DNA of 34,025 nucleotides from an uncultured Bacilli bacterium (lineage in GTDB: Bacteria; Bacillota_I; Bacilli_A; RF39; UBA660): assembly GCA_944358795.1 (NCBI GenBank), contig CALVRW010000002.1, positions 1 to 34,025 on the forward strand, written 5' to 3'. A program made the position numbers and the translations under genes. Below the pieces are notes generated by a model. The model was not told the DNA's origin, did no database searches, and saw nothing but the letters and a program-made list of their open reading frames with translations. Of this stretch, positions 3,535 through 34,025 are shown piece after piece (the stretch's first letter is position 1; the number at the start of each line of letters is the position of its first letter).

Positions 3535-6321
3535 ATGAAGAAAAAAATACTTGTAATATTGGTTTTAATTGGAAGTATGATTGGTTTTGTAAATGCGAAA
3601 CCAAATGATACACAAGTACGTGTTAATTATTTAAAAAATGTTTATGGGAATTTTGTTATTGGAGATTTATTTTATTGGAATCAGATAGGACTCACTTATG
3701 CGAATAATAAACTTGCATATTGTTTAGAACCAGGTAAATGGATTACAGAAAATATTTATGATTCATATACTGATTTTTCCATTAAAAATTTAGATAAAGA
3801 AGATAAAGAGTACTTAGAGTTAGTTGCATATTATGGATATCAATATCCATCCCATCAGACAACAAAATATTATTTAGCAACGCAAGAATTAATATGGCGA
3901 TATTTAGGCTTGAAAGAAATATATTGGACAACAAAAGCAGAGCATCAAGGAGAAAGAATTAATGTCGAAGCTGAGAAAAATGAAATTAAGCGTCTTATGA
4001 ATGGACATTATAACAAACCATCTTTTCATGGTCAAACTTATGAAGTTATTTCGGGTGTTCCATTTCATTTAATCGATAAAAATAGAGTTCTTCATGATTA
4101 TGGAGTGATTTTACCAGTAGAACATGAAACAGAAATTAATGGAGATAAGTTGACAATTTATCCTAAAAAAATAGGGGACTCAACGATATCATTTTTACGA
4201 TATCCAGGTTCTTATCAAGCAAGTTTTCTTTATACAAAAAATAATTCACAAGCACTAGGAACCTTTGGATTATCCAGTCGTATTGAAGCAAATATTCATA
4301 TTAGAGTAAAAGGTTATCAACTTACCATTCATAAAAAGGATGCTGATACGGATACCAATGTACCAAGTGGAGATGCAAAATTAGAAGGAGCAGTCTATGA
4401 AATAAGTAATGGCTTAGATTATTTAAATACGATGACAACCGATAAAAATGGAGTTGCTACACTAAAAAATATTCCAGCTGGTACTTATAAAATAAAAGAG
4501 ATAAAAGCACCAGAAGGATATTTATTAGATAAGAAAGTTTATACTGTTACTTTAAATAAAGATACTGCTTTAGAAGTAGAAATGGATATGCCAGAACAAG
4601 TAATGAAGAATAAGATAAAGTTAATCAAAGTTTTTTCAGATGGCGAAACAGGAATTTTAAAACCAGAAGTAGAAATTCATTTTGGTATTTATAAAAAAGA
4701 TGGAACTCTTTACCGGGAAGTTGTAACAGATTCTTATGGTTCTGTTTCGTTTGAATTACCATATGGAAAATATGTTGTAAAACAGTTAAATACATTACCA
4801 AACTATGAAAAAGTAAAAGATTTTGAAATTCATGTAACAGAAGATAAAAAAGATATTATTCAATTTGTTTTACATGATAAATTTATTCGTAGTAAAGTAA
4901 AAATAAAAAAAGTAGATGAACTGGGAACACCAATTCATGAAGCAGGAATTACCTTTAAAATAAAAAATCTAGATACTGGAGAATATGTCAAACAGACAAT
5001 CACTTATCCAGAACATAAAATAATCGAAGAATTTAAGACTGACCAAAATGGAGAAATCGTATTACCAGCTACATTACCAGCAGGACGTTATGCATTAGAA
5101 GAGAAAACAGCTCCAACTGGTTATTATAAATTAAAAGAACCTATTTTATTTACTTTAAACGAAGATACAGAGTATGAAGAAACAGAAGATGGATTACTTT
5201 ATACAATTGAAGTAAAAAATGTAAGACAAAAAGGAAAAGTAAAGATTAAAAAACAAGGTCGTAAGATTACACTAGTTCAAACTGATGATGGATTATATCA
5301 ACAACAAGAAGAATTAAAAAACTTAACAGGGGTAGAGTTTACGTTATTTGCCAAAGAAGATATTATTGAAAACGGGAAAGTGATTTATAAACAACATGAT
5401 GTAGTGGAAAAGTTGGAAACAGAGAACGGGGAAGTGATTTCCAAAGAGTTACCATTAGGAAGTTATTGTTTAAAAGAAAGTCGAACAATTGAAGATTATA
5501 TGTTAGATGAGAAAGAATATTGTTTCAAATTAGAAGCAAAAGAAGAACAAGATAGTGTGATAATAAAAGAATTTTCTTTTGTAAATGAAAAACCTCATAC
5601 TAAAATAGAATTATTAAAAGAACAAGAAAAGATGATAGGGATTGAAAAGAAAACAGGAGTTTATCAAAAAATTCCATTTGAACAAATAGAATTCGGTATC
5701 TATAATAAAGAACCAATTAAAATCGATGATACAATGATAAAAGAAAATACTTTATTAATGAAAAAAACTACAAATCAAGAAGGAAAACTTATAGTTGAAG
5801 AATTACCTTTTGGAACTTATATGATAAAAGAATTAACTGATAAAGAGGAATATAAAAAAAGTAAAGACATAGAAGTGAAACTAACAAAAGAAGAACCACA
5901 AAAATCTATTACAGTTGTAAATGAAAAGAAGAAAGGGAGTGTTTTAATTTTAAAACAAGATGATAATGGCAATTTATTATCTAATGCAACCTTTACGATT
6001 ACGAATGAAACAGGAGATATTACGTATCAAAATCAAGTAGATGAAAATGGATCTCTTCTTTTAGAATCATTGGAGTATGGAACATATTATCTAGAAGAGA
6101 CGAAAGCACCAGATGGATATCAACGAATGAAGAAAAAAATAAAAGTTGAAGTACATCAAGATGCTTTAGTAAATAAAATCGTTGTAAAGAATAAAAAACT
6201 ATTTTTACCAGATACTTCTAGTTTAACGAAAACCATAGAAAAATGGATTGCAATTGGATTTGGAAGTATGATTACATTTTTCTTTCTTGCTTTTGTCATA
6301 AAAAAGAAACGTCATGGATAG
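3535..6321 (+). CDS. Surface adhesin: thioester domain plus six SpaA/CnaB-like repeats with LPxTG-like anchor
   Basis: A 928-aa cell-wall protein. Residues 1-21 form a signal peptide ending VNA. Residues about 30-250 look like a thioester (TED) domain: YCLEPG (C63), the central TQELIW motif (residues 116-121) and a later SQALG (Q239) that could be the Gln partner of the Cys-Gln thioester. Six SpaA/CnaB-type domains follow (about 260-880). Most carry the E-box strand (KIKEIKAPEGY, ALEEKTAPTGY, CLKESRT, MIKELTD, YLEETKAPDGY) needed for Lys-Asn isopeptide bonds. The second repeat reads VVKQ, with Gln in place of Glu. The C-terminus has LPDTS, a hydrophobic segment and KKKRHG, a sortase sorting signal in variant form. 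Known TED adhesins bind host proteins covalently; the target here is unknown. AGGGAGGAAACGT sets the start. The sortase gene overlaps its 3' end. Confidence 0.9.
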   Translation: MKKKILVILVLIGSMIGFVNAKPNDTQVRVNYLKNVYGNFVIGDLFYWNQIGLTYANNKLAYCLEPGKWITENIYDSYTDFSIKNLDKEDKEYLELVAYYGYQYPSHQTTKYYLATQELIWRYLGLKEIYWTTKAEHQGERINVEAEKNEIKRLMNGHYNKPSFHGQTYEVISGVPFHLIDKNRVLHDYGVILPVEHETEINGDKLTIYPKKIGDSTISFLRYPGSYQASFLYTKNNSQALGTFGLSSRIEANIHIRVKGYQLTIHKKDADTDTNVPSGDAKLEGAVYEISNGLDYLNTMTTDKNGVATLKNIPAGTYKIKEIKAPEGYLLDKKVYTVTLNKDTALEVEMDMPEQVMKNKIKLIKVFSDGETGILKPEVEIHFGIYKKDGTLYREVVTDSYGSVSFELPYGKYVVKQLNTLPNYEKVKDFEIHVTEDKKDIIQFVLHDKFIRSKVKIKKVDELGTPIHEAGITFKIKNLDTGEYVKQTITYPEHKIIEEFKTDQNGEIVLPATLPAGRYALEEKTAPTGYYKLKEPILFTLNEDTEYEETEDGLLYTIEVKNVRQKGKVKIKKQGRKITLVQTDDGLYQQQEELKNLTGVEFTLFAKEDIIENGKVIYKQHDVVEKLETENGEVISKELPLGSYCLKESRTIEDYMLDEKEYCFKLEAKEEQDSVIIKEFSFVNEKPHTKIELLKEQEKMIGIEKKTGVYQKIPFEQIEFGIYNKEPIKIDDTMIKENTLLMKKTTNQEGKLIVEELPFGTYMIKELTDKEEYKKSKDIEVKLTKEEPQKSITVVNEKKKGSVLILKQDDNGNLLSNATFTITNETGDITYQNQVDENGSLLLESLEYGTYYLEETKAPDGYQRMKKKIKVEVHQDALVNKIVVKNKKLFLPDTSSLTKTIEKWIAIGFGSMITFFFLAFVIKKKRHG

Positions 6322-6835
6322 AATATTCGAAAAATTAGGTTGGATTACACTATTTTTGATGGTATTTTCTTTTTTACTGGGTTATGGATTTCTGAAAATA
6401 GATCAAAAACAAGAACAAAAGTTGATTATAGAATATGAAGAAGAACCACAACAATATCAAACCAAATATTTTGGGTATCTATCCTTCCCAGATTATCAAC
6501 AATATCGATTTATTATGTATGGTTCACCAGAGAATGCTGTGAAACAAGCGAAAATAGGAATTTTTGGAGAACAACCAAACTCAGTTCCTTCTGATCCACT
6601 GATTTTAGTAGGTCATAGTAAAAAAAATCAGTTTGAAATTCTCCATAAGTTGAAAATTGGCGATGAAGTAAAGTTAACAAAAGAAAAGAATCAATATCAG
6701 TATCATGTAGTAGATAAAGAAGTTATTGAAGAAAGTGATATGTCGTTTATGAAAAAAATTCAAGATCATATGCTTATTTTAATTACTTGTATGACAGATA
6801 ATGAGAAACGATTAGTTGTATATTGTCAATTTTAA
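6314..6835 (+). CDS. Sortase dedicated to the upstream adhesin
   Basis: A 173-aa membrane-anchored transpeptidase. Residues 8-28 form an N-terminal signal-anchor. The catalytic set is visible: His101 in LVGHS, Cys159 in LILITC (the TLxTC-type motif) and Arg166 in KRLVVY. The gene overlaps the end of the adhesin gene by 8 nt, so the two are translationally coupled, and the adhesin's LPDTS signal is its most likely substrate. Overall length and TLxTC-like ending resemble class D or class E sortases rather than class A, but I cannot assign a class with certainty. It should attach the adhesin to peptidoglycan or its precursor on the outer face of the membrane. No clear terminator follows, only a short palindrome at 6849-6864. 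Confidence 0.9.
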   Translation: MDRIFEKLGWITLFLMVFSFLLGYGFLKIDQKQEQKLIIEYEEEPQQYQTKYFGYLSFPDYQQYRFIMYGSPENAVKQAKIGIFGEQPNSVPSDPLILVGHSKKNQFEILHKLKIGDEVKLTKEKNQYQYHVVDKEVIEESDMSFMKKIQDHMLILITCMTDNEKRLVVYCQF

Positions 6836-7799: not shown

Positions 7800-8865
7800 A
7801 TGAAAAAATATATAAAAGGGAATTATCGAAGAAGTATCTTTGAATCAGATAAAGGTTACGTAATTGGTTTATTTAAAGTATCGGATACCAATATGGAAAA
7901 TATGGAAGATTATATTGGAAAAACGATTACATTTACTGGTTATTTTCATGAACTAAATTTAGATGATTCTTATGTATTTTACGGAGAAGAATTAGAACAC
8001 CCAAAGTATGGATTTCAATTTCAAGTAAGTGAATATGAACGATTAAAACCAAGTGGAAAAGATGGAATTGTTGCTTTTCTATCAAGTGATTTATTTCATG
8101 GAATTGGTGAAAAAATGGCTGAGAGAATTGTCGATACTTTAGGTGAACAAGCATTAGATCGAATTTTAGAAGAGCCAGAAAGTTTGATGTTAGTACCAAA
8201 ACTTAGTAAAAAGAAAATGGATCATATTGTAAAAACATTAGAGAAATATGAAGAAAGTCATCAAACAATTGTCTATTTAACTGATTTAGGATTTAGTATG
8301 AAAGATAGCTTAAATATCTATAATTATTATAAAAGTAATACCATTCCAACAATTGAACATAATATTTATAGATTGTTAGATGATGTTGACGAAATCTCTT
8401 TTCCTAAATTAGATGAAATCAGTATGAAACTAGGTTATGATTGTATGGAAGATAGTAGAATAGAATCCTGTATTATTTATATTATGGAACAACTATCTTT
8501 TAAACAAGGAGATACGTATTTATATCAAGAAGAAGTAATCAAACAATTAAATCGTTATTTGAAAATAGAAATAACATTAGAACAATTTACTAATCATTTA
8601 CACAATTTACGTTTGCTAGACAAGGTTGTAGTAGAAGAAAATAAATTATATTTAAAAGAAATGTATGAAGCTGAAAAAATTATTGCTTATGAGTTAAGCT
8701 CTTTGACACAGAAAAAAACATTTGATTATCCGAAATTAACGACTTATTTAGAAACATTACAAAAAGAAAATGATATTATTTATAACGAAAAACAAAAAGA
8801 AGCGATTGTAACAGCACTAACAAATTCGATTACGATTATTACTGGTGGACCAGGTACTGGAAAAA
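7800..8865 (+). CDS. recD2: RecD2 helicase, 5' exon (interrupted by a group II intron)
   Basis: RecD2 (YrrC-type) is a 5'-3' superfamily 1B DNA helicase working without RecBC in DNA repair and fork maintenance. This exon gives residues 1-355: an N-terminal OB-like region, a helix-hairpin-helix segment (LFHGIGEKMAERIVDTLGEQ, about residues 100-119) and the helicase 1A start with ITGGPGTGK (Walker A, GGPGTGK at residues 349-355). The exon ends after the first base of the next codon, where a group II intron begins with GTGCG. Without splicing the frame hits TAA at 8889-8891 and makes a motorless 363-aa product. Joined to 11709-12862 it gives 739 aa with GKTTIMKAIVEL restored across the junction, the normal RecD2 sequence and length. 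GAGGTGAGAAC sets the start. Confidence 0.93.
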
Positions 8866-9277
8866 GTGCGACAAGTTTAGTAGTTAAATAAACAAAGCTA
8901 CTACATTATCTAAGATAATGAACTGATAGTCTGAGATGAGAATTGATAGGGTAACGCCTTGAAGCTCACTGCTAATACTTCGACATGCAGGAGTTGGTAA
9001 CAAACCGTGTGAAGCTCGAGGAAGACGGCTGAAGAACACCCTAGAACAGAAAATTATTAAGTAATGTTGGTATAAAAGTGTCTAGAGACCGCCCGCAGGA
9101 AAGATAACAGAGTATGTTCAAGGAAAAATGAGTCAATAACTCATGTGTTTGATAGGTCGGGCATCTATAAAATAACTATGGTTAGAATGTATTCAAAATA
9201 CTGACGAACCTCCGAATGTAAGTCTCGTAAAAGTGGAAAGAGTCGAAAGGGCTCGGGATAGTTATATGCCAGAGGGT

Positions 9278-9299
9278 AGACTGAATTTTTTCTAAGTCT
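9278..9299 (+). other. Intron domain I hairpin carrying EBS1
   Basis: AGACT (9278-9282) pairs with AGTCT (9295-9299). The 12-nt loop contains TTTTTC (9287-9292), the exact reverse complement of GAAAAA at 8860-8865, the last six bases of the 5' exon (IBS1). Location in a terminal loop of domain I and adjacency to the splice site fit EBS1. Confidence 0.75.
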
Positions 9300-9649
9300 G
9301 ACCTTAATCGTTACAGGCGATTGCGGTATATCGGGATAGAGGAGTGAACCTAAGGTTATATGGTAAAAGATAAGGCTATCGGAACTTGGAATTATCCAAC
9401 CTTAAGCTTTAAGGTTTAAGGTAGCAGAAGCGAAAACATTTAATAATGTATAAGTTATGCGTAATGGATAATAAGCGGTGGTATTACTTATGATGTTTCT
9501 TGTAATGAGAAACGGAGGGATGACCACTAGTCATAATATAAGATTAACGTAAACTTACATCAAAATTTTATATAACAAATTGCGAGTAAGAATAATAAAC
9601 TTCGTAAGTTGGGAAGTTAACTCTTCGCAGAAATCGAGGTGAATACGTT

Positions 9650-11590
9650 ATGAAAGATAAAAACTTTACACGAAAAGAAAAATCTGCATATTATTCACAA
9701 TGTATGCAGATGTATCAAGGTTTATATGAGTTAACAAAAGAACAAATTAAAGATAAAGGTTATGCTTCGCATAAAAGCTTAATGTATAAAATAGCTTCTA
9801 CAAAGAATATAGTGAATGCAATAAGAAGTATTTCAAAAAACACAGGCGGAAGAACCGCTGGTGTGGATGGAACTACCATTAGGGATGTTAAGAAATATAA
9901 TAACTCAGAAATGGTAAGAAGAATACAAAATAAACTTCTAGGTAACAACTATCAACCTAAAAGAATTAAAAGAGTATATATTCCTAAAAATAATGGGGAT
10001 TTAAGACCTCTTGGAATTCCAACAATAGAAGATAGAATTATACAGCAAGCAATAAAGCAAGTACTTGAACCAATAGCAGAAGCTCAATTTTCAAGAGTAA
10101 GCTCAGGATTTAGACCAGGAAGGTCTGCTCATAATGCAATGGCACAAGTAGACAATATGATACAAATGTCTAAAATGAGTTGGTGTGTCAAATGTGACAT
10201 AAAAGGATTCTTTGACAATGTTGACCATAATAGATTAATTAAAGCATTATGGAGTTTTGGTATAAGAGACAAAAAAGTTCTTAGTATTATCAAAACAATA
10301 TTAAAAACAGAAATAGTAGATATGGATGGTACAGTAACAAAACCTGAAAAAGGAACGCCACAAGGCGGAGTTATAAGCCCGCTACTAGCAAATATTTACT
10401 TAGATGCTTTAGACAAATGGGTAGAATCTCAATGGACACATTTTAAAACAAGGCACACATATTACTCAGATATAAGAGATAAGAGCTATCAAAGACCAAA
10501 TCAAAATAAGAAATATAGAGCACTTCGAAGTAACTCAAAAATGAAAGAAATGTATATTATTCGATATGCAGATGATTTTTTGATTTTTACAAACAGTAAA
10601 GAAAATGCAGAGAAAATAAAACATGCTACTATATTATGGTTAAAACAAAATTTAAAACTTGAGTGCAGTCTTGAAAAAACAAAGCTCATAGACCTTAAAA
10701 ATGAATTTGCAGAATTTCTGGGATTCAAATTTAAAATATCCAATAGAGTAAAAGTAACATCTAAAGGAAGTAAAAAATATATTATAGATTCACATATTGC
10801 AGATAAGTCGCTTAAAAATATAAAAGAAAAGTTGAACAAACAAATCGATTATATAGCTACTGCAAATGATAATATAACATTTCATAAAGCCATACAAATT
10901 TACAATAGCATGGTAATGGGCATTCATAATTATTTCTGTGTTGCTCATGGAGTTAATAATGATTTAAGCCGACTTGGCTGGGATATTCAAAAGAAACTCT
11001 ATAACAGAGTTCTCAAAGATTATCCAGACAGAAACTCTACACCAGAAAATTATCTTCCGTGTTACCAGACAATAGTAAATAAATATGGTACTTCCAAAGA
11101 GCTAAAATGTTGCAAAGGAATTCCGATAATTCCAATCAGGTATGTACAATTTAAAGCCCCAATAAGCTTTAATGAAGGTTATAATCTATATGATATAGAA
11201 AATAATCTAAATACAATAAACCTTGAAGATATGGCAAAAATAATTGCATATTTTTCAAGTGATGTGCATAATGAACGAGACACAACGGAATTATACGAAA
11301 ACAAAATCAGTAGATTAGTTAGCCAAAAAGCTCTCTGTTATATTACGAAAACACCGTTGATATATGGAGAAATAGCTACACATCATATACTTCCTGTACA
11401 TCTTGGTGGAACTGATAAATATGAAAATATTATCATAATACAAGAAAGAGTTCATGAATTAATACATAATTCAGAATCACTACAAGAAGCATTAGAGAAG
11501 CTCAAATCGGAATATTCAACGGGAAAAAGAATCGAAAAGAAGTTTACTGAAATCTATATTAAAGCGAATCCTGAAAAATCTAAAATTTAA
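9650..11590 (+). CDS. ltrA: Group II intron reverse transcriptase/maturase with HNH endonuclease domain
   Basis: The 646-aa intron-encoded protein promotes splicing (maturase) and target-primed reverse transcription. Reverse transcriptase blocks are intact: IPKNNGDLRPLGIPTIEDRI (111-130), SSGFRPGRSAHNA (151-163), CDIKGFFDNVDH (182-193), GTPQGGVISPLLAN (235-248), YADDF (306-310) and EFLGFKF. A maturase/X region follows. The C-terminus is an HNH nuclease: CYITKTP, ATHHILPVHLGG (HH near residue 578), then N and H in YENIIIIQERVHELIH. The first Cys pair of the usual zinc-type HNH reads CYIT, so one ligand seems lost. GAGGTGAATACGTT sets the start. The frame is intact and the protein is probably functional. 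Confidence 0.95.
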   Translation: MKDKNFTRKEKSAYYSQCMQMYQGLYELTKEQIKDKGYASHKSLMYKIASTKNIVNAIRSISKNTGGRTAGVDGTTIRDVKKYNNSEMVRRIQNKLLGNNYQPKRIKRVYIPKNNGDLRPLGIPTIEDRIIQQAIKQVLEPIAEAQFSRVSSGFRPGRSAHNAMAQVDNMIQMSKMSWCVKCDIKGFFDNVDHNRLIKALWSFGIRDKKVLSIIKTILKTEIVDMDGTVTKPEKGTPQGGVISPLLANIYLDALDKWVESQWTHFKTRHTYYSDIRDKSYQRPNQNKKYRALRSNSKMKEMYIIRYADDFLIFTNSKENAEKIKHATILWLKQNLKLECSLEKTKLIDLKNEFAEFLGFKFKISNRVKVTSKGSKKYIIDSHIADKSLKNIKEKLNKQIDYIATANDNITFHKAIQIYNSMVMGIHNYFCVAHGVNNDLSRLGWDIQKKLYNRVLKDYPDRNSTPENYLPCYQTIVNKYGTSKELKCCKGIPIIPIRYVQFKAPISFNEGYNLYDIENNLNTINLEDMAKIIAYFSSDVHNERDTTELYENKISRLVSQKALCYITKTPLIYGEIATHHILPVHLGGTDKYENIIIIQERVHELIHNSESLQEALEKLKSEYSTGKRIEKKFTEIYIKANPEKSKI

Positions 11591-11625
11591 ACAGTAAGTG
11601 AAAAGTTAACTTATATTATGATGGC

Positions 11626-11659
11626 ACGCCGTGTGCGGTGAAAGTCGCATGCACGGTGT
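11626..11659 (+). ncRNA. Group II intron domain V
   Basis: A 34-nt hairpin with the diagnostic bacterial sequence GCCGTGTGCGGTGAAAGTCG and its closing strand CGCATGCACGGTGT. Domain V is the catalytic core of the ribozyme. Its good preservation argues that the intron can still splice. Domain VI (about 11660-11708) follows directly. Confidence 0.9.
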
Positions 11660-11708
11660 AGAGCGGGGGAAAAGCTGGAGACAATATCAAAGGCTTACCT
11701 ATCGCTAT

Positions 11709-12862
11709 CGACCATTATGAAAGCAATTGTCGAACTATATGCACGTATTCATAAAATGGATGAGGATGAATTAGAAGCAAATTTATGCCTTTTGGCACCA
11801 ACAGGACGTGCAAGTAAGAGAATGAGTGAATCAACATTACATGGAGCTTCTACGATTCATCGATTTTTAAAATGGAACAAAGATAATAATGAATTTGCGG
11901 TAAATGAATTTAATAAAGATTTTAGTCGTTTTATTATTGTGGATGAAGTAAGTATGATCGATACACTTCTTTTAAATCATCTATTAAAAGGATTAACCAA
12001 TCAAATCCAGATGGTATTAGTTGGTGATTATAATCAATTACCAAGCGTTGGTGCTGGACAAATTTTAAAAGATATGATCGATAGTAATGTGATTCCAACT
12101 GTAGAGTTAGAACATTTATATCGCCAAGATGAAAATTCCTATATTTCTACATTAGCAAGCGAAATAAAAGAAGATACCTTAAGTTCTAAGTTTTTAGAAA
12201 CACATAGTGATTATACATTTCTAAAGTGTTCTAGTTCTAGTATCAATATGAATTTAAAAAATTTATGTAATCAATTAAAAGAAAAAGGATATCATGAAAA
12301 AAGAGTACAAATAATGGCACCGATGTATCGTGGAGAAAATGGAATTGATATTCTGAATAAAGAATTACAAGAGGTATTTAATCCAAATGATGGAACAAAA
12401 GTAGAAATCAAATATGGTGATGTTATTTTTAGAGAACAAGATAAAATTTTACAATTAGTCAATATGCCAGATGAAAATGTATTTAATGGTGATATTGGTG
12501 TAATAAAATATATTATTCCTGCTAATCGTAGTAAAAGTGGTAAAAATGAAATTTATGTCGACTATGATGGAATAGTTGTAAAATATTTACCAAAAGATTT
12601 TGTCAAAATAAAACATGGTTATGTAATTACCATTCATAAATCACAAGGAAGTGAATTTGAAGTTGTCGTTATGCCAATTAGTCATAATTATCATAGAATG
12701 CTTTATCGAAAACTAGTTTATACTGGTGTCACAAGAGCAAAAAAGAAATTAATTTTAATTGGTGAAGCAAATGCGTTTGAATTTGCAGTTCATAACAATC
12801 AAGAATATATAAGAAAAACAACCTTAAAAGAAATGTTACAAAATATGAATAAACAATTGTAA
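11709..12862 (+). CDS. recD2: RecD2 helicase, 3' exon
   Basis: This exon carries the rest of the motor. Numbering in the spliced protein: T356-T357-I-M-K completes the P-loop, motif Ia LLAPTGRASKRMSE (about 383-396), Walker B VDEVSMID (about 433-440), motif III VGDYNQLPSVGAG (about 460-472), LYRQ (about 492-495), motif V TIHKSQGSEFE and motif VI YTGVTRAKKKLILIG near the C-terminus. The exon begins with CGACC, which completes a Thr codon with the final A of the first exon. An internal ATG at 11717 has no ribosome binding site, so independent translation is unlikely. Both exons share the codon use of the neighbouring genes, and neither shows decay, consistent with a spliced and working gene. 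Confidence 0.93.
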
Positions 12863-14027: not shown

Positions 14028-14033
14028 TAAAAA

Positions 14034-14243
14034 AGAAGCAATGACCAAAGAGTAGTAATAAGATTTTTTATTGATAGAAAGTTCGTGGTTGATGGAAACG
14101 AATAATAAAAACTTATGAATTCACTTTGAGAGCTTTATATTGCAAAGATATAACGGTCACGCGTTTTAGTGAAGAGGTAGTTTAACTACGAAATAAGGTG
14201 GTACCACGTCATCACGTCCTTAGTATTAGGACGTGATTTTTTT
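14034..14243 (+). ncRNA. T-box riboswitch, phenylalanine-specific
   Basis: A canonical T-box leader. Stem I begins near ATGACCAAAGAGTAG. The specifier codon is most likely TTC (Phe) at 14120-14122, just before ACTTTGAGAGC. The T-box sequence AAGGTGGTACCACG is at 14195-14208. The antiterminator uses AAGG...CCTT with the 7-nt bulge TGGTACC. The competing terminator is ATCACGTCCT (14211-14220) with AGGACGTGAT (14228-14237) plus a T-run, and it overlaps the antiterminator as expected. Uncharged tRNA-Phe should switch on the downstream hydrolase-pheS-pheT operon. Confidence 0.92.
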
Positions 14244-18500: not shown

Positions 18501-18529
18501 TTTAAAAAGAACCAGAAGTGTGATAAAAT
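18501..18529 (+). promoter_or_regulatory. Promoter of the first structured pilin leader
   Basis: TTTAAA (18501-18506), 17-nt spacer, TG-A-TAAAAT (18521-18529, extended -10). Predicted start near 18536, about 40 nt before the conserved leader element and 205 nt before the pilin start codon. Confidence 0.5.
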
Positions 18530-18575
18530 TAGCATATAGGAAAGTAAAATGTTAGATAAATATTTTGCGTTTAAA

Positions 18576-18674
18576 GTCTCTTTCATTATATTAGCAAATA
18601 GTAAAAATGGGGGGGGGCGATTTAGCCCTCCTCCTATTCTTTTGTATGAAAAAGAGATAACTAAAGGAAGTGAG
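18576..18674 (+). ncRNA. Structured leader RNA element, copy A
   Basis: This element lies in the 5' untranslated region of the large pilin-like gene and recurs nearly unchanged at 33432-33515. An outer helix pairs GTCTCTTTCAT (18576-18586) with ATGAAAAAGAGA (18646-18657). Inside it a run of nine G plus C (18609-18618) pairs along its full length with GCCCTCCTCC (18625-18634), allowing two G-U pairs, around the loop GATTTA. T-rich TATTCTTTT follows, so the inner hairpin has the form of an intrinsic terminator. TAACTAAAGGAAGTGA closes the conserved block. I know no riboswitch class with this sequence. It may be an attenuator. Confidence 0.65.
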
Positions 18675-18740
18675 TTTGAAGGAAAAAGTATATTTTAAAT
18701 ATTAACAAATTCAAAAAAGGAATAAGGAGTGAATGAAAGA

Positions 18741-20273
18741 ATGAAGGAAAAATCAAAACAAGGATTTACATTAATTGAGTTACTTGCGGTTATTGTCATA
18801 CTAGCAGTTATTGCCCTAATCGCAACGCCATTAATTATGAATGTGATTAATGATGCGAAAAAGAGTACTGCAAGAGATGCCGGATATAGCGTGATTAAAG
18901 CTGGAGAATTAAAAGCAGCAACAGAAGGAATCGAAAGTGTCAATCCACCTTTTCATTATGATGAAGGTAGTAACCTACCAATGAAAGGAACCAAGCCAAC
19001 AAAGTTCACACTTGATATCGATAAAGAAATGAAAACACAATTACGTGCTTGGATTAATGGATACTGTGTTGTAAAAGATTATGATACAGAAGAAGTAACA
19101 ATCGATGAAAGTAAGACAACAGAGAAAAAATGTGTAAAAGGAAATAATGGTATAGAAGAGCCAGAGATAGCAGATGGGCTAATACCAGTTACCTTTGATA
19201 GTGAAGGTAAGACTGTAAAAGCTGACGTTGATAGTGATTGGTATGATTATAATAATAAAAGATGGGCGAATGCTGTAGCTGTAACTAATGAAAGTAGAAA
19301 TAAATATAAAAGTGCCAGTGCTGGAACTGAAATCGCAGAATCTGATATCTTAGCTTATTATGTATGGATACCAAGATATAAATATCAATTATGGAATGTA
19401 GAAGGAAATACATCAACTCCACAAGAAATTAAAATCGAATTTGAAAGTAAGAGTACACCAAAAAGTACCGGAACCAAAAATGGAGAATGGTTAACACATC
19501 CAGCCTTTACTTTTGGAAGTACAGAATTATCAGGACTATGGGTTGGAAAATTTGAGATGACAGGAACAGCGTCAAGTCCAACCATCAAACCAAATGTTTC
19601 TTCCTTGAGAAGTTTAAATATTAGTAGTTTCTTTAATACGATAAAAAGTATGGGAAATAATTATGGACTAAGTAGTTATGATTCCCACATGATGAAAAAT
19701 AGTGAATGGGGAGCAGTTGCTTACTTATCACATAGTAAATATGGAAAAAATAGTGAAGTATTTCTAAACAACCGTTCTCTTTATACAACAGGATGTGGAG
19801 CAGATAGTGTAAGTGAAGGTAATACAAGCACATGTAAAAATGCTTATGGGAGTAAAGGAAATGGAACTTATAATCAAAGTACAACTGGAAACATCACAGG
19901 TGTCTTTGATATGAGTGGAGGAGCTTGGGAATTTGTAATGGCCAATAGTGCTAACCAAGATGGAAGTTTTAACACAGCAGACAGTGGATTTACCAGTGCC
20001 CCAGATAGTAAATACTATGATAAATATGATTATAATACTAATAGAGAAAATAATAGTATTAGTAAATTAGGAGATGCGATGAAAGAAGTTTATGTGTCAT
20101 CAGCTAAACATTGGAACGGTGATTATGGTTATATAGCTTACTCATCCAGCCCTTGGATAAAGCGAGGCGGTGAGTATATACATGATACAAGAGCTGGTGT
20201 ATTCTCTTCGGGAAATTACACCGGTTCCGGGTATGTGAGCAACTCTGCGCGTGCTGTCTTAGTCAACGATTAA
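18741..20273 (+). CDS. Large type IV pilin-like protein with C-terminal FGE/C-type-lectin-like domain
   Basis: A 510-aa surface protein. MKEKSKQGFTLIELL is a class III prepilin signal (cut after Gly8) followed by a long hydrophobic helix ending ALIATP. A linker domain (about 45-135) has two Cys. From about residue 200 a second domain shows features of the formylglycine-generating-enzyme/C-type lectin fold: YYVWIPRYKY (about 205), GLWVGKFEM, NSEWGAVAYLS, GVFDMSGGAWEFV (about 387-399), and a Ser/Tyr/Gly-rich C-terminus WIKRGGEY...SARAVLV. The last ~110 nt are far richer in GC than the rest. The design suggests a pilus-tip or minor-pilin adhesin. The start is the ATG 11 nt after AAGGAG; the in-frame GTG at 18729 overlaps that Shine-Dalgarno. 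A terminator follows. Confidence 0.85.
   Translation: MKEKSKQGFTLIELLAVIVILAVIALIATPLIMNVINDAKKSTARDAGYSVIKAGELKAATEGIESVNPPFHYDEGSNLPMKGTKPTKFTLDIDKEMKTQLRAWINGYCVVKDYDTEEVTIDESKTTEKKCVKGNNGIEEPEIADGLIPVTFDSEGKTVKADVDSDWYDYNNKRWANAVAVTNESRNKYKSASAGTEIAESDILAYYVWIPRYKYQLWNVEGNTSTPQEIKIEFESKSTPKSTGTKNGEWLTHPAFTFGSTELSGLWVGKFEMTGTASSPTIKPNVSSLRSLNISSFFNTIKSMGNNYGLSSYDSHMMKNSEWGAVAYLSHSKYGKNSEVFLNNRSLYTTGCGADSVSEGNTSTCKNAYGSKGNGTYNQSTTGNITGVFDMSGGAWEFVMANSANQDGSFNTADSGFTSAPDSKYYDKYDYNTNRENNSISKLGDAMKEVYVSSAKHWNGDYGYIAYSSSPWIKRGGEYIHDTRAGVFSSGNYTGSGYVSNSARAVLVND
20161..20271 (+). other. GC-rich 3' segment, candidate hypervariable region
   Basis: By my count 26 of 60 bases (20161-20220) and 28 of 50 bases (20221-20270) are G or C, against roughly a third or less in the surrounding genome. 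It encodes the last ~37 residues of the FGE-like domain, where diversity-generating retroelement targets carry their variable region. No template copy is present in the window. Confidence 0.4.
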
Positions 20274-33384: not shown

Positions 33385-33413
33385 TTGACAGTATAATGGG
33401 TATTTGATATGAT
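33385..33413 (+). promoter_or_regulatory. Strong promoter of the second structured pilin leader
   Basis: A perfect TTGACA (33385-33390), 17-nt spacer, TATGAT (33408-33413) with TG one base upstream (extended -10). The start near 33420 places the conserved element at the very 5' end of a leader of about 180 nt. Confidence 0.8.
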
Positions 33414-33431
33414 TAAAATGTAAAAAGTAGA

Positions 33432-33515
33432 GTCTCTTTCATTAGGGCAAAAATGGGGGGCGATTTAGCCCTCCTCCTATTTTTTGTATGAAAAAGAGAT
33501 AATTAAAGGAAGTGA
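33432..33515 (+). ncRNA. Structured leader RNA element, copy B
   Basis: Same element as at 18576-18674: outer helix GTCTCTTTCAT (33432-33442) with ATGAAAAAGAGA (33488-33499), inner hairpin G6C (33455-33461), loop GATTTA, GCCCTCC (33468-33474), then TCCTATTTTTTG and the tail TAATTAAAGGAAGTGA. The G-run is six long here against nine in copy A, so the inner stem is 7 bp rather than 10. A 12-nt stretch between the outer and inner helices of copy A is absent. Confidence 0.65.
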
Positions 33516-33597
33516 TTTACTAAAAAAATTGTCGAAAAAAGTATATTGATGGTATACATGATATACTACTAATAGAATAGAAGGAGTGAATAAAAGA

Positions 33598-34025
33598 ATG
33601 AAAGAAAAAAAATATCAAGGATTTACCTTAATTGAACTGTTAGCAGTAATCGTAATTTTAGCTGTAATCGCACTTATCGCAACACCACTTATTATGAATG
33701 TGATTAATGATGCGAAAAAAGGAGCCGCTAGAGATGCTGGTTATAATGTAATTAAGGCAGGAGAGTTGAAAGCAGCAACATCAGGAATAGAAAATCAAGA
33801 ACCTCCATATCACTATGATGAAACAAGTAATCTACCAATGAAGGGAACAAAACCATCAAAATTTACCTTAGATATTAATGAAGATATGGATACACAACTA
33901 AAAGCATGGTTAAATGGATACTGTGTTGTAAAAGAATATGGAAATGAAACAGTAACGATTGATGAAAGTAAGAAGTCAGAAGCAGAATGTGTTACAGGTG
34001 GAAGTAGTGTCACGAAAAAATACGA
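33598..34025 (+). CDS. Large type IV pilin-like protein, partial (runs off the window)
   Basis: The first 142 codons of a paralogue of the gene at 18741. MKEKKYQGFTLIELL gives the same prepilin signal (cut after Gly8). The hydrophobic helix is identical in sequence (AVIVILAVIALIATPLIM), and the linker domain is closely similar (DAGYNVIKAGELKAATSGIE, NLPMKGTKPSKFTLDI, LNGYCVVKEYG, TIDES). AAGGAG lies 11 nt before the ATG, as in the other copy; an in-frame GTG overlaps that site. The C-terminal domain is beyond the window, so whether it has the FGE-like part cannot be seen. Confidence 0.88.
   Translation, partial: MKEKKYQGFTLIELLAVIVILAVIALIATPLIMNVINDAKKGAARDAGYNVIKAGELKAATSGIENQEPPYHYDETSNLPMKGTKPSKFTLDINEDMDTQLKAWLNGYCVVKEYGNETVTIDESKKSEAECVTGGSSVTKKY

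Follow-up and report, generated by a model that had tools for sequence, protein, structure and literature searches.

A genus-specific terminator-like leader element before dispersed prepilin genes and a diversity-generating retroelement in an uncultured Bacilli bacterium, and its possible role as an attenuator

What does a terminator-like hairpin do between a promoter and the start of a pilin gene, and why should it be repeated? The question is raised by a 34,025-nucleotide stretch of DNA from an uncultured Bacilli bacterium (hereafter the window; contig C2 of a 1.17-Mb genome that is 94% complete), in which a first-pass annotation had described two copies of a leader RNA, here called A and B. 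Both copies lie where that annotation had placed them, and a sequence check found the described parts to be common to the two. The reading that we favor, with a probability of about 0.5, is that the element is a genus-specific, cis-acting leader attenuator that gates a diversity-generating retroelement (DGR) and its pilin targets. The two copies and their surroundings comprise the following features:

18501 to 18529, plus strand: weak distal promoter of copy A, TTTAAA-17-TAAAAT (9/12 matches in a consensus scan, TG before the second hexamer)
18576 to 18586, plus strand: 5' pyrimidine arm of the outer helix P1 of copy A, GTCTCTTTCAT (from the fold)
18609 to 18634, plus strand: inner hairpin P2 of copy A, with a G9 tract plus C, the loop GATTTA at 18619 to 18624 and a CU-rich 3' arm (terminator scan; covariance-model match at 18574-18673, E 8.9e-16)
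18635 to 18643, plus strand: T-rich, terminator-like tract 3' of P2 of copy A, TATTCTTTT (sequence and terminator scan)
18646 to 18658, plus strand: 3' purine arm of P1 of copy A, ATGAAAAAGAGAT (fold and duplex)
18741 to 20273, plus strand: prepilin A, fused to a domain resembling DGR variable proteins, 510 amino acids from its ATG (PF07963, E 1.3e-7)
20137 to 20267, plus strand: diverged, variable-repeat-like segment of pilin A, related to template repeat TR1 (alignment to TR1)
33385 to 33413, plus strand: distal promoter of copy B, TTGACA-17-TATGAT (11/12 matches)
33432 to 33442, plus strand: 5' pyrimidine arm of P1 of copy B (fold; duplex of -9.5 kcal/mol)
33455 to 33477, plus strand: P2 of copy B, with a G6 tract plus C, the loop GATTTA at 33462 to 33467 and a CU-rich 3' arm (terminator scan; covariance-model match at 33430-33515, E 4.0e-13)
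33478 to 33485, plus strand: T-rich tract of copy B, TATTTTTT (sequence and terminator scan)
33488 to 33500, plus strand: 3' purine arm of P1 of copy B (fold and duplex)
33546 to 33567, plus strand: remnant of a proximal pilin promoter at copy B, TTGATG and TATACT with a spacer of 10 rather than the 17 nt seen elsewhere
33598 to 34023, plus strand: 5' part of prepilin gene B, an open frame that runs off the contig end (PF07963, E 1.1e-8)

The P2 hairpin of copy A reads GGGGGGGGGC-GATTTA-GCCCTCCTCC, followed by its T-rich tract, and has 10 pairs in the terminator scan, 8 of them G-C; copy B reads GGGGGGC-GATTTA-GCCCTCCTCC before its own tract. Against dinucleotide shuffles the copies fold with z = -3.3 (A) and z = -2.5 (B), and the 5' arm of P1 in copy A forms a duplex of -9.5 kcal/mol with its own 3' arm. 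The proposed order of promoter, leader and pilin gene is well supported at copy B, where the near-consensus promoter that had been reported is indeed present and 0 of 300 shuffles equaled its score, but less so at copy A, whose weak promoter taken alone does not exceed chance in the shuffle comparison. The proximal promoter is absent from copy A and, with its shortened spacer, probably broken at copy B. An open reading frame of 49 amino acids with a weak Shine-Dalgarno match runs through the hairpin in copy A alone (window 18549-18698). The earlier remark that the element matches no familiar riboswitch family agrees with the Rfam search, which returned no gathering-score match at the element; within the window it matched only elsewhere, at a group II intron and a T-box, and a lenient scan added chance matches alone. 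The intron (window 8891-11717, RT/HNH open reading frame 9650-11590) interrupts a RecD2-like helicase (open reading frames 7800-8891 and 11717-12862), and the T-box leader (RF00230, window 14032-14224) precedes a hydrolase-like gene and pheS/pheT-like genes. The window also encodes a repetitive surface protein of 928 amino acids (3535-6835) that has a C-terminal anchor-like end and is followed by a sortase-like gene.

Copies A and B are part of a larger family. A 19-nt core, with at most 3 mismatches, was found at 9 sites of the 1.17-Mb genome, compared with 0 when read backwards; a diverged extra copy precedes the pilin gene of contig C15, and another, on contig C3, was found through its G-run. 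A covariance model built from ten copies and searched in 193 genomes of the family recovered 14 full copies, of which 11 belong to this genome and 3 to a sister species, with 0 in the 191 other family genomes, and the element was not found in the leaders of pilins from other genera. Among the genomes searched, it is confined to one genus. All 14 copies have the same orientation and lie 59–147 nt before the next gene, which is on the same strand and encodes a prepilin in 13 cases; the fourteenth copy precedes an operon with MutS-like, Avd and reverse-transcriptase genes, which itself leads into a pilin. The first-pass annotation had thus been right to propose a dispersed family of structured leaders tied to pilin-like genes. 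Its forecast that a covariance model would find many matches, each before a prepilin gene, held for their number but for only 13/14 of their positions, and the scatter unrelated to pilin genes that it had feared did not appear, since every copy precedes either a prepilin gene or the DGR operon.

The sister species carries the same element at orthologous places, next to sufS-like (C3), gap-like (C26) and glyS-like genes; the last of these lies 1 kb upstream of copy B in the window, and the sister element follows the same gene. Because it occupies orthologous places in both species, the element predates their split. At the sufS-like place of the sister, no DGR genes stand between hairpin and pilin, so that the DGR was either inserted there in this genome or lost in the sister. 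Some loci are truncated: two further pilin loci keep the 3' flank alone, joined to the 3' end of a group II intron, at a locus on contig C6 the hairpin is reduced to its 5' half, and no intact 5' exon was found for the intron-interrupted copies, where the contigs end. At L003 and L009, the element is abutted, at an identical position, by a sequence like a terminal repeat and by a divergent start resembling that of a transposase (MPRKYDNNF); this junction removes the 5' arm of the outer helix, and a third such junction is found at the C6 remnant (L178).

Could the element be a passenger, a repeat without function of its own that was dispersed by gene conversion between the 5' ends of paralogous pilin genes? 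Paralogs are nearly identical in their leader and N-terminal coding sequence, some outer helices have mosaic arms, and gene conversion or duplication does explain part of the element's spread. However, the element also stands before a DGR operon that is not homologous to the pilins and before three prepilin types, has been retained at three orthologous places in both species, shows compensated stem changes in the gap-like pair and was not found at other genes, which together make a mere passenger improbable.

The pattern of conservation is that of an RNA. The inner hairpin P2 is present in 14/14 copies, and over its sixteen pairs 91% of cells are paired, compared with at most 80% when the arms are slid by one column. 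About 32 of the paired cells are G-U by our own count from the pairing table; as these would be A-C mismatches on the opposite strand, selection appears to act on the plus-strand RNA, in the sense of the pilin gene. The loop GAUUUA is nearly invariant, with one inserted A in two copies. The outer helix, which has a 2-nt bulge, is more variable: it can be seen clearly in L001, L002, L006, L119, L130 and the C3 copy but is weaker in the rest, among them L004, L109 and L121, and L003, L008 and L009 lack its 5' arm. Of the two-helix architecture proposed earlier, the inner helix was therefore found throughout, but the outer one is bulged, weak or armless in several copies. Compensatory changes, which had been predicted for both helices, exist but are modest: the arms of an outer helix pair better with each other than with permuted arms (p = 0.033 with ten copies; p = 0.006 with eight, after removal of duplicates), whereas the 2–3 double changes in P2 are close to the shuffled controls. 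A further hairpin, TTGCTA..TAGCAA, precedes the linker in three copies (L004, L007 and L119). The terminator scan of the plus strand recovered the hairpin in copies A and B and in that of the DGR operon, compared with 0.0–0.1 expected; in the remaining copies a G+C-rich stem with an immediate U-tract is seen by sequence, although it is poor in L005 (TTTTAATA).

The genes behind the element turned out to be more than pilins. Products A and B both score above the PF07963 cut-off and have the N-terminal GFTLIE methylation motif of type IV prepilins, and the closest pilin relatives come from records with the names uncultured Tenericutes/Bacilli and Candidatus Onthousia. The sequence profile of pilin A matches 5vf4 (TaqVP; E 2.3e-5), and structure prediction (mean pLDDT 74) gives a fold that matches TaqVP (E 6.5e-8) and Mtd (E 4e-4); with TM-scores as low as 0.26–0.34 by query length, this likeness is best taken as a resemblance at the level of domains. 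On contig C3, the hairpin is followed by genes for a MutS-I-like protein (PF01624, E 2e-7), an Avd-like protein and a reverse transcriptase (E 1.7e-16), then by an asparagine-rich template repeat and a prepilin gene. The Avd-like protein (bAvd, 3.5e-8; NCBIfam Avd, 8.5e-11) stays below the curated cut-offs but is identified clearly by its E-value and position. On contig C42, a hairpin-bearing pilin gene is followed downstream by a second such operon, which has a template repeat of its own; the template repeats of the C42 (L202) and C3 (L192) operons differ. When three hairpin-bearing pilins were compared with the template of the C42 operon, 15/39, 23/39 and 19/39 adenines differed, compared with 0/98, 1/98 and 8/98 other positions; pooled, this amounts to 57/117 adenines vs 9/294 non-adenines (p 2e-27). 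Both operons are DGRs: they have a reverse transcriptase, an Avd-type protein and a template repeat, and the variable repeats compared with the C42 template show adenine-specific differences. Most of the genes that the first-pass annotation had called large pilins, correctly as to the pilin part, are DGR variable proteins with a pilin N-terminus and a C-type-lectin-like domain, a feature that it had missed.

The segment in pilin A differs from TR1 at 18/37 A positions and at 25/94 non-A positions, and these non-adenine differences are too many for a current TR1 target, so this assignment was rejected. A genome-wide search for variable repeats of TR2 (at most 3 mismatches at non-template-A positions) retrieved TR2 itself alone. 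No variable repeat was found in three hairpin-bearing prepilins (L003, L008 and L009), and three pilins resembling variable proteins are without the hairpin element; both observations count against the reading that we favor. The pilin-like targets are dispersed over many contigs, several of which end inside these genes. The palindrome TAGTCGCTAGCGACTA lies a few bases past the variable repeat in 3/3 clear TR1 targets (L202, L204 and L205) and resembles the stem-loop that is needed downstream of the variable repeat in phage BPP-1.

Whether the hairpin regulates or merely insulates depends on the promoters around it. A distal promoter with a score of at least 10 stands just upstream of the hairpin in 8/14 copies, where 0.84 would be expected, and the layout of an attenuator, with the promoter upstream of the terminator and the gene downstream, is found in 8/14 copies; the distal promoter is not clear in L001, L003, L005, L007, L009 and L121. 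Between hairpin and gene, 8/14 copies have a proximal promoter, TTGNNN-17-TATACT, which also precedes hairpin-less pilins and carries an inverted repeat, GTATAC..GTATAC. Because this promoter lies downstream of the hairpin, the hairpin can attenuate only the distal transcript in those 8 copies. The terminator within a leader that had been postulated is thus present in form, but attenuation would be limited to the distal transcript wherever a proximal promoter exists (8/14). Across the -35 and -10 elements of proximal promoters (e.g. L100, L102, L107 and L110) runs the inverted repeat TAGTATAC..GTATACTA, possibly an operator for a regulator common to the pilin family.

The same observations bear on a simpler explanation, in which the hairpin is a plain insulating terminator that was carried along whenever a pilin 5' region was copied; it would block transcription from upstream or from remnant promoters, the pilins would be expressed solely from their own, regulated proximal promoter, and there would be no regulation in the leader. 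That the proximal promoter is found in 8/14 copies as well as before hairpin-less pilins fits such a role, as does the look of a bidirectional terminator that the A-tract and U-tract give to the hairpin. In both species, the hairpin of the gap-like locus comes straight after the upstream gene, and there it is likely to be the terminator of that gene because it lies 35–38 nt past the stop codon, with no clear promoter in the interval. A strong distal promoter placed between the upstream gene and an insulator in 8/14 copies would, however, be pointless, a nearly invariant GAUUUA loop would not be needed, and complete termination would silence the window copies, L008 and the copy of the DGR operon, none of which has a proximal promoter in working order. 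We consider plain insulation a serious but rather doubtful account of the family as a whole.

Another possibility is that the attenuator is phase-variable, with slippage in the G-tract changing the strength of the terminator stem and thereby switching pilins and the DGR stochastically. The G-tract has 6 to 9 nt, depending on the copy, and is sometimes interrupted, while the loop and the 3' arm are nearly constant; the tract differs within each of the three orthologous pairs, and of the 10 places in the genome with 7 or more consecutive G, 7 lie inside full hairpin copies and one more in a truncated copy. There is also a precedent for pilus attenuation combined with repeat slippage in S. gallolyticus (PMC3894217). 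In related genera, poly-G runs of 8–16 nt separate the -35 (TTGAC) and -10 elements of promoters (L034 (~4,800), L061, L062, L148, L152, L154, L158-L160 and L162), before pilin-like genes in L034, L061 and L062, which lends the idea some further weight; judged from their sequence, these spacers are likely to make slipped-strand phase-variable promoters. Six to nine G are nevertheless short for a contingency tract, and the stem with G6 still folds stably. We hold stochastic switching by such an attenuator to be quite unlikely, and think it only slightly less so that slippage sets both pilin display and hypermutation activity, cell by cell, through the common attenuator.

We infer the following scheme for the attenuator that we favor. 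Some 40–80 nt downstream of the distal promoter, the RNA would form a hairpin like that of an intrinsic terminator, made up of the G-tract, the loop GAUUUA, the CU-rich arm and the U-tract, and framed in many copies by the weaker outer helix. The U-tract would end most transcripts from the distal promoter, with a fraction reading through, so that the leader would set the joint output of the target pilins and the DGR machinery. Loci with a proximal promoter could be expressed without passing the hairpin, which may there only insulate. The window copies, L008 and the C3 DGR operon would depend on read-through; indeed, the window copies and the C3 operon seem to need it because their proximal promoter is shrunken (copy B) or absent. 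Read-through would have to be partial or conditional, since a complete terminator would silence such loci. That one DGR operon carries the same leader as the pilins makes their coordinated control plausible.

How read-through might be controlled was approached through several candidates. Between the 5' pyrimidine arm and the G-tract, 8–11 pairs (-5 to -11 kcal/mol) are possible, better than with shuffled arms, and would form a candidate antiterminator; this pairing shows no covariation, is worse for cognate than for permuted partners and is much weaker than the hairpin. Leader-peptide attenuation was rejected, as no conserved open reading frame or Shine-Dalgarno site is present, and so was a conserved mini-ORF of ATG and G-tract, which has no ribosome-binding site and is absent in three copies. 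A LoaP-type NusG paralog was discarded too, the 94%-complete genome having a single NusG. A translational switch, in which the 5' arm would pair with the gene start, was dismissed because the pairing is not specific to the cognate gene (p = 0.42). This last result also bears on the idea that the element encodes a family of small RNAs, terminated after about 60–100 nt and acting in trans, for example through the CU-rich arm on Shine-Dalgarno sequences. Promoter, hairpin and U-tract are indeed the anatomy of a small-RNA gene as well, and the CU-rich arm looks like an anti-Shine-Dalgarno sequence; yet the 5' arm pairs no better with its cognate start region than with those of other copies, and the constant place directly upstream of the same gene classes suggests action in cis, so that we regard small RNAs as very improbable.

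Among known systems, attenuators of the Bacillota such as T-box, TRAP, PyrR and similar ones, controlled by proteins, ribosomes or ligands, place a terminator hairpin between promoter and gene. The element described here shares this arrangement but has no Rfam match, an antiterminator that is only a candidate, and a single NusG in its genome. The pil1 pilus operon of S. gallolyticus has a promoter and a stem-loop terminator in its leader, with a slippage-prone repeat in a translated leader peptide, whose ribosome melts the terminator (Danne et al. 2014, PMC3894217). The order of promoter and leader terminator and the presence of a slippage-prone repeat are common to both; unlike in pil1, the repeat here is an arm of the hairpin, there is no conserved leader peptide with a ribosome-binding site, and the pili are type-IV-like instead of sortase-type, with many dispersed copies of the leader, one of them at the DGR operon. 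Group IIC introns insert after intrinsic terminators, according to work cited in PMC7161350, and two loci have a hairpin and T-tract with a group II intron end at the 3' flank, which supports the reading that we favor; unlike such intron targets, the element is found at pilins and the DGR operon only, rather than at terminators in general.

A literature search, which was not exhaustive, found no report of a leader element common to a DGR and its targets, and a 2026 paper treats the regulation of DGRs in nature as open, an "exciting frontier" (PMC12875486). A leader common to the mutagenic machinery and its dispersed targets would be a concrete point of DGR control, and it brings to light, in uncultured gut Bacilli, a family of pilins that had gone unnoticed and is linked to targeted protein hypermutation. 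With the known MSL-Avd DGRs, the present systems share an MSL-Avd-RT operon, a template repeat, adenine-specific variable repeats and C-type-lectin variable proteins like TaqVP and Mtd; they differ from these in that their targets are dispersed prepilin fusions and in that operon and targets have a leader hairpin in common.
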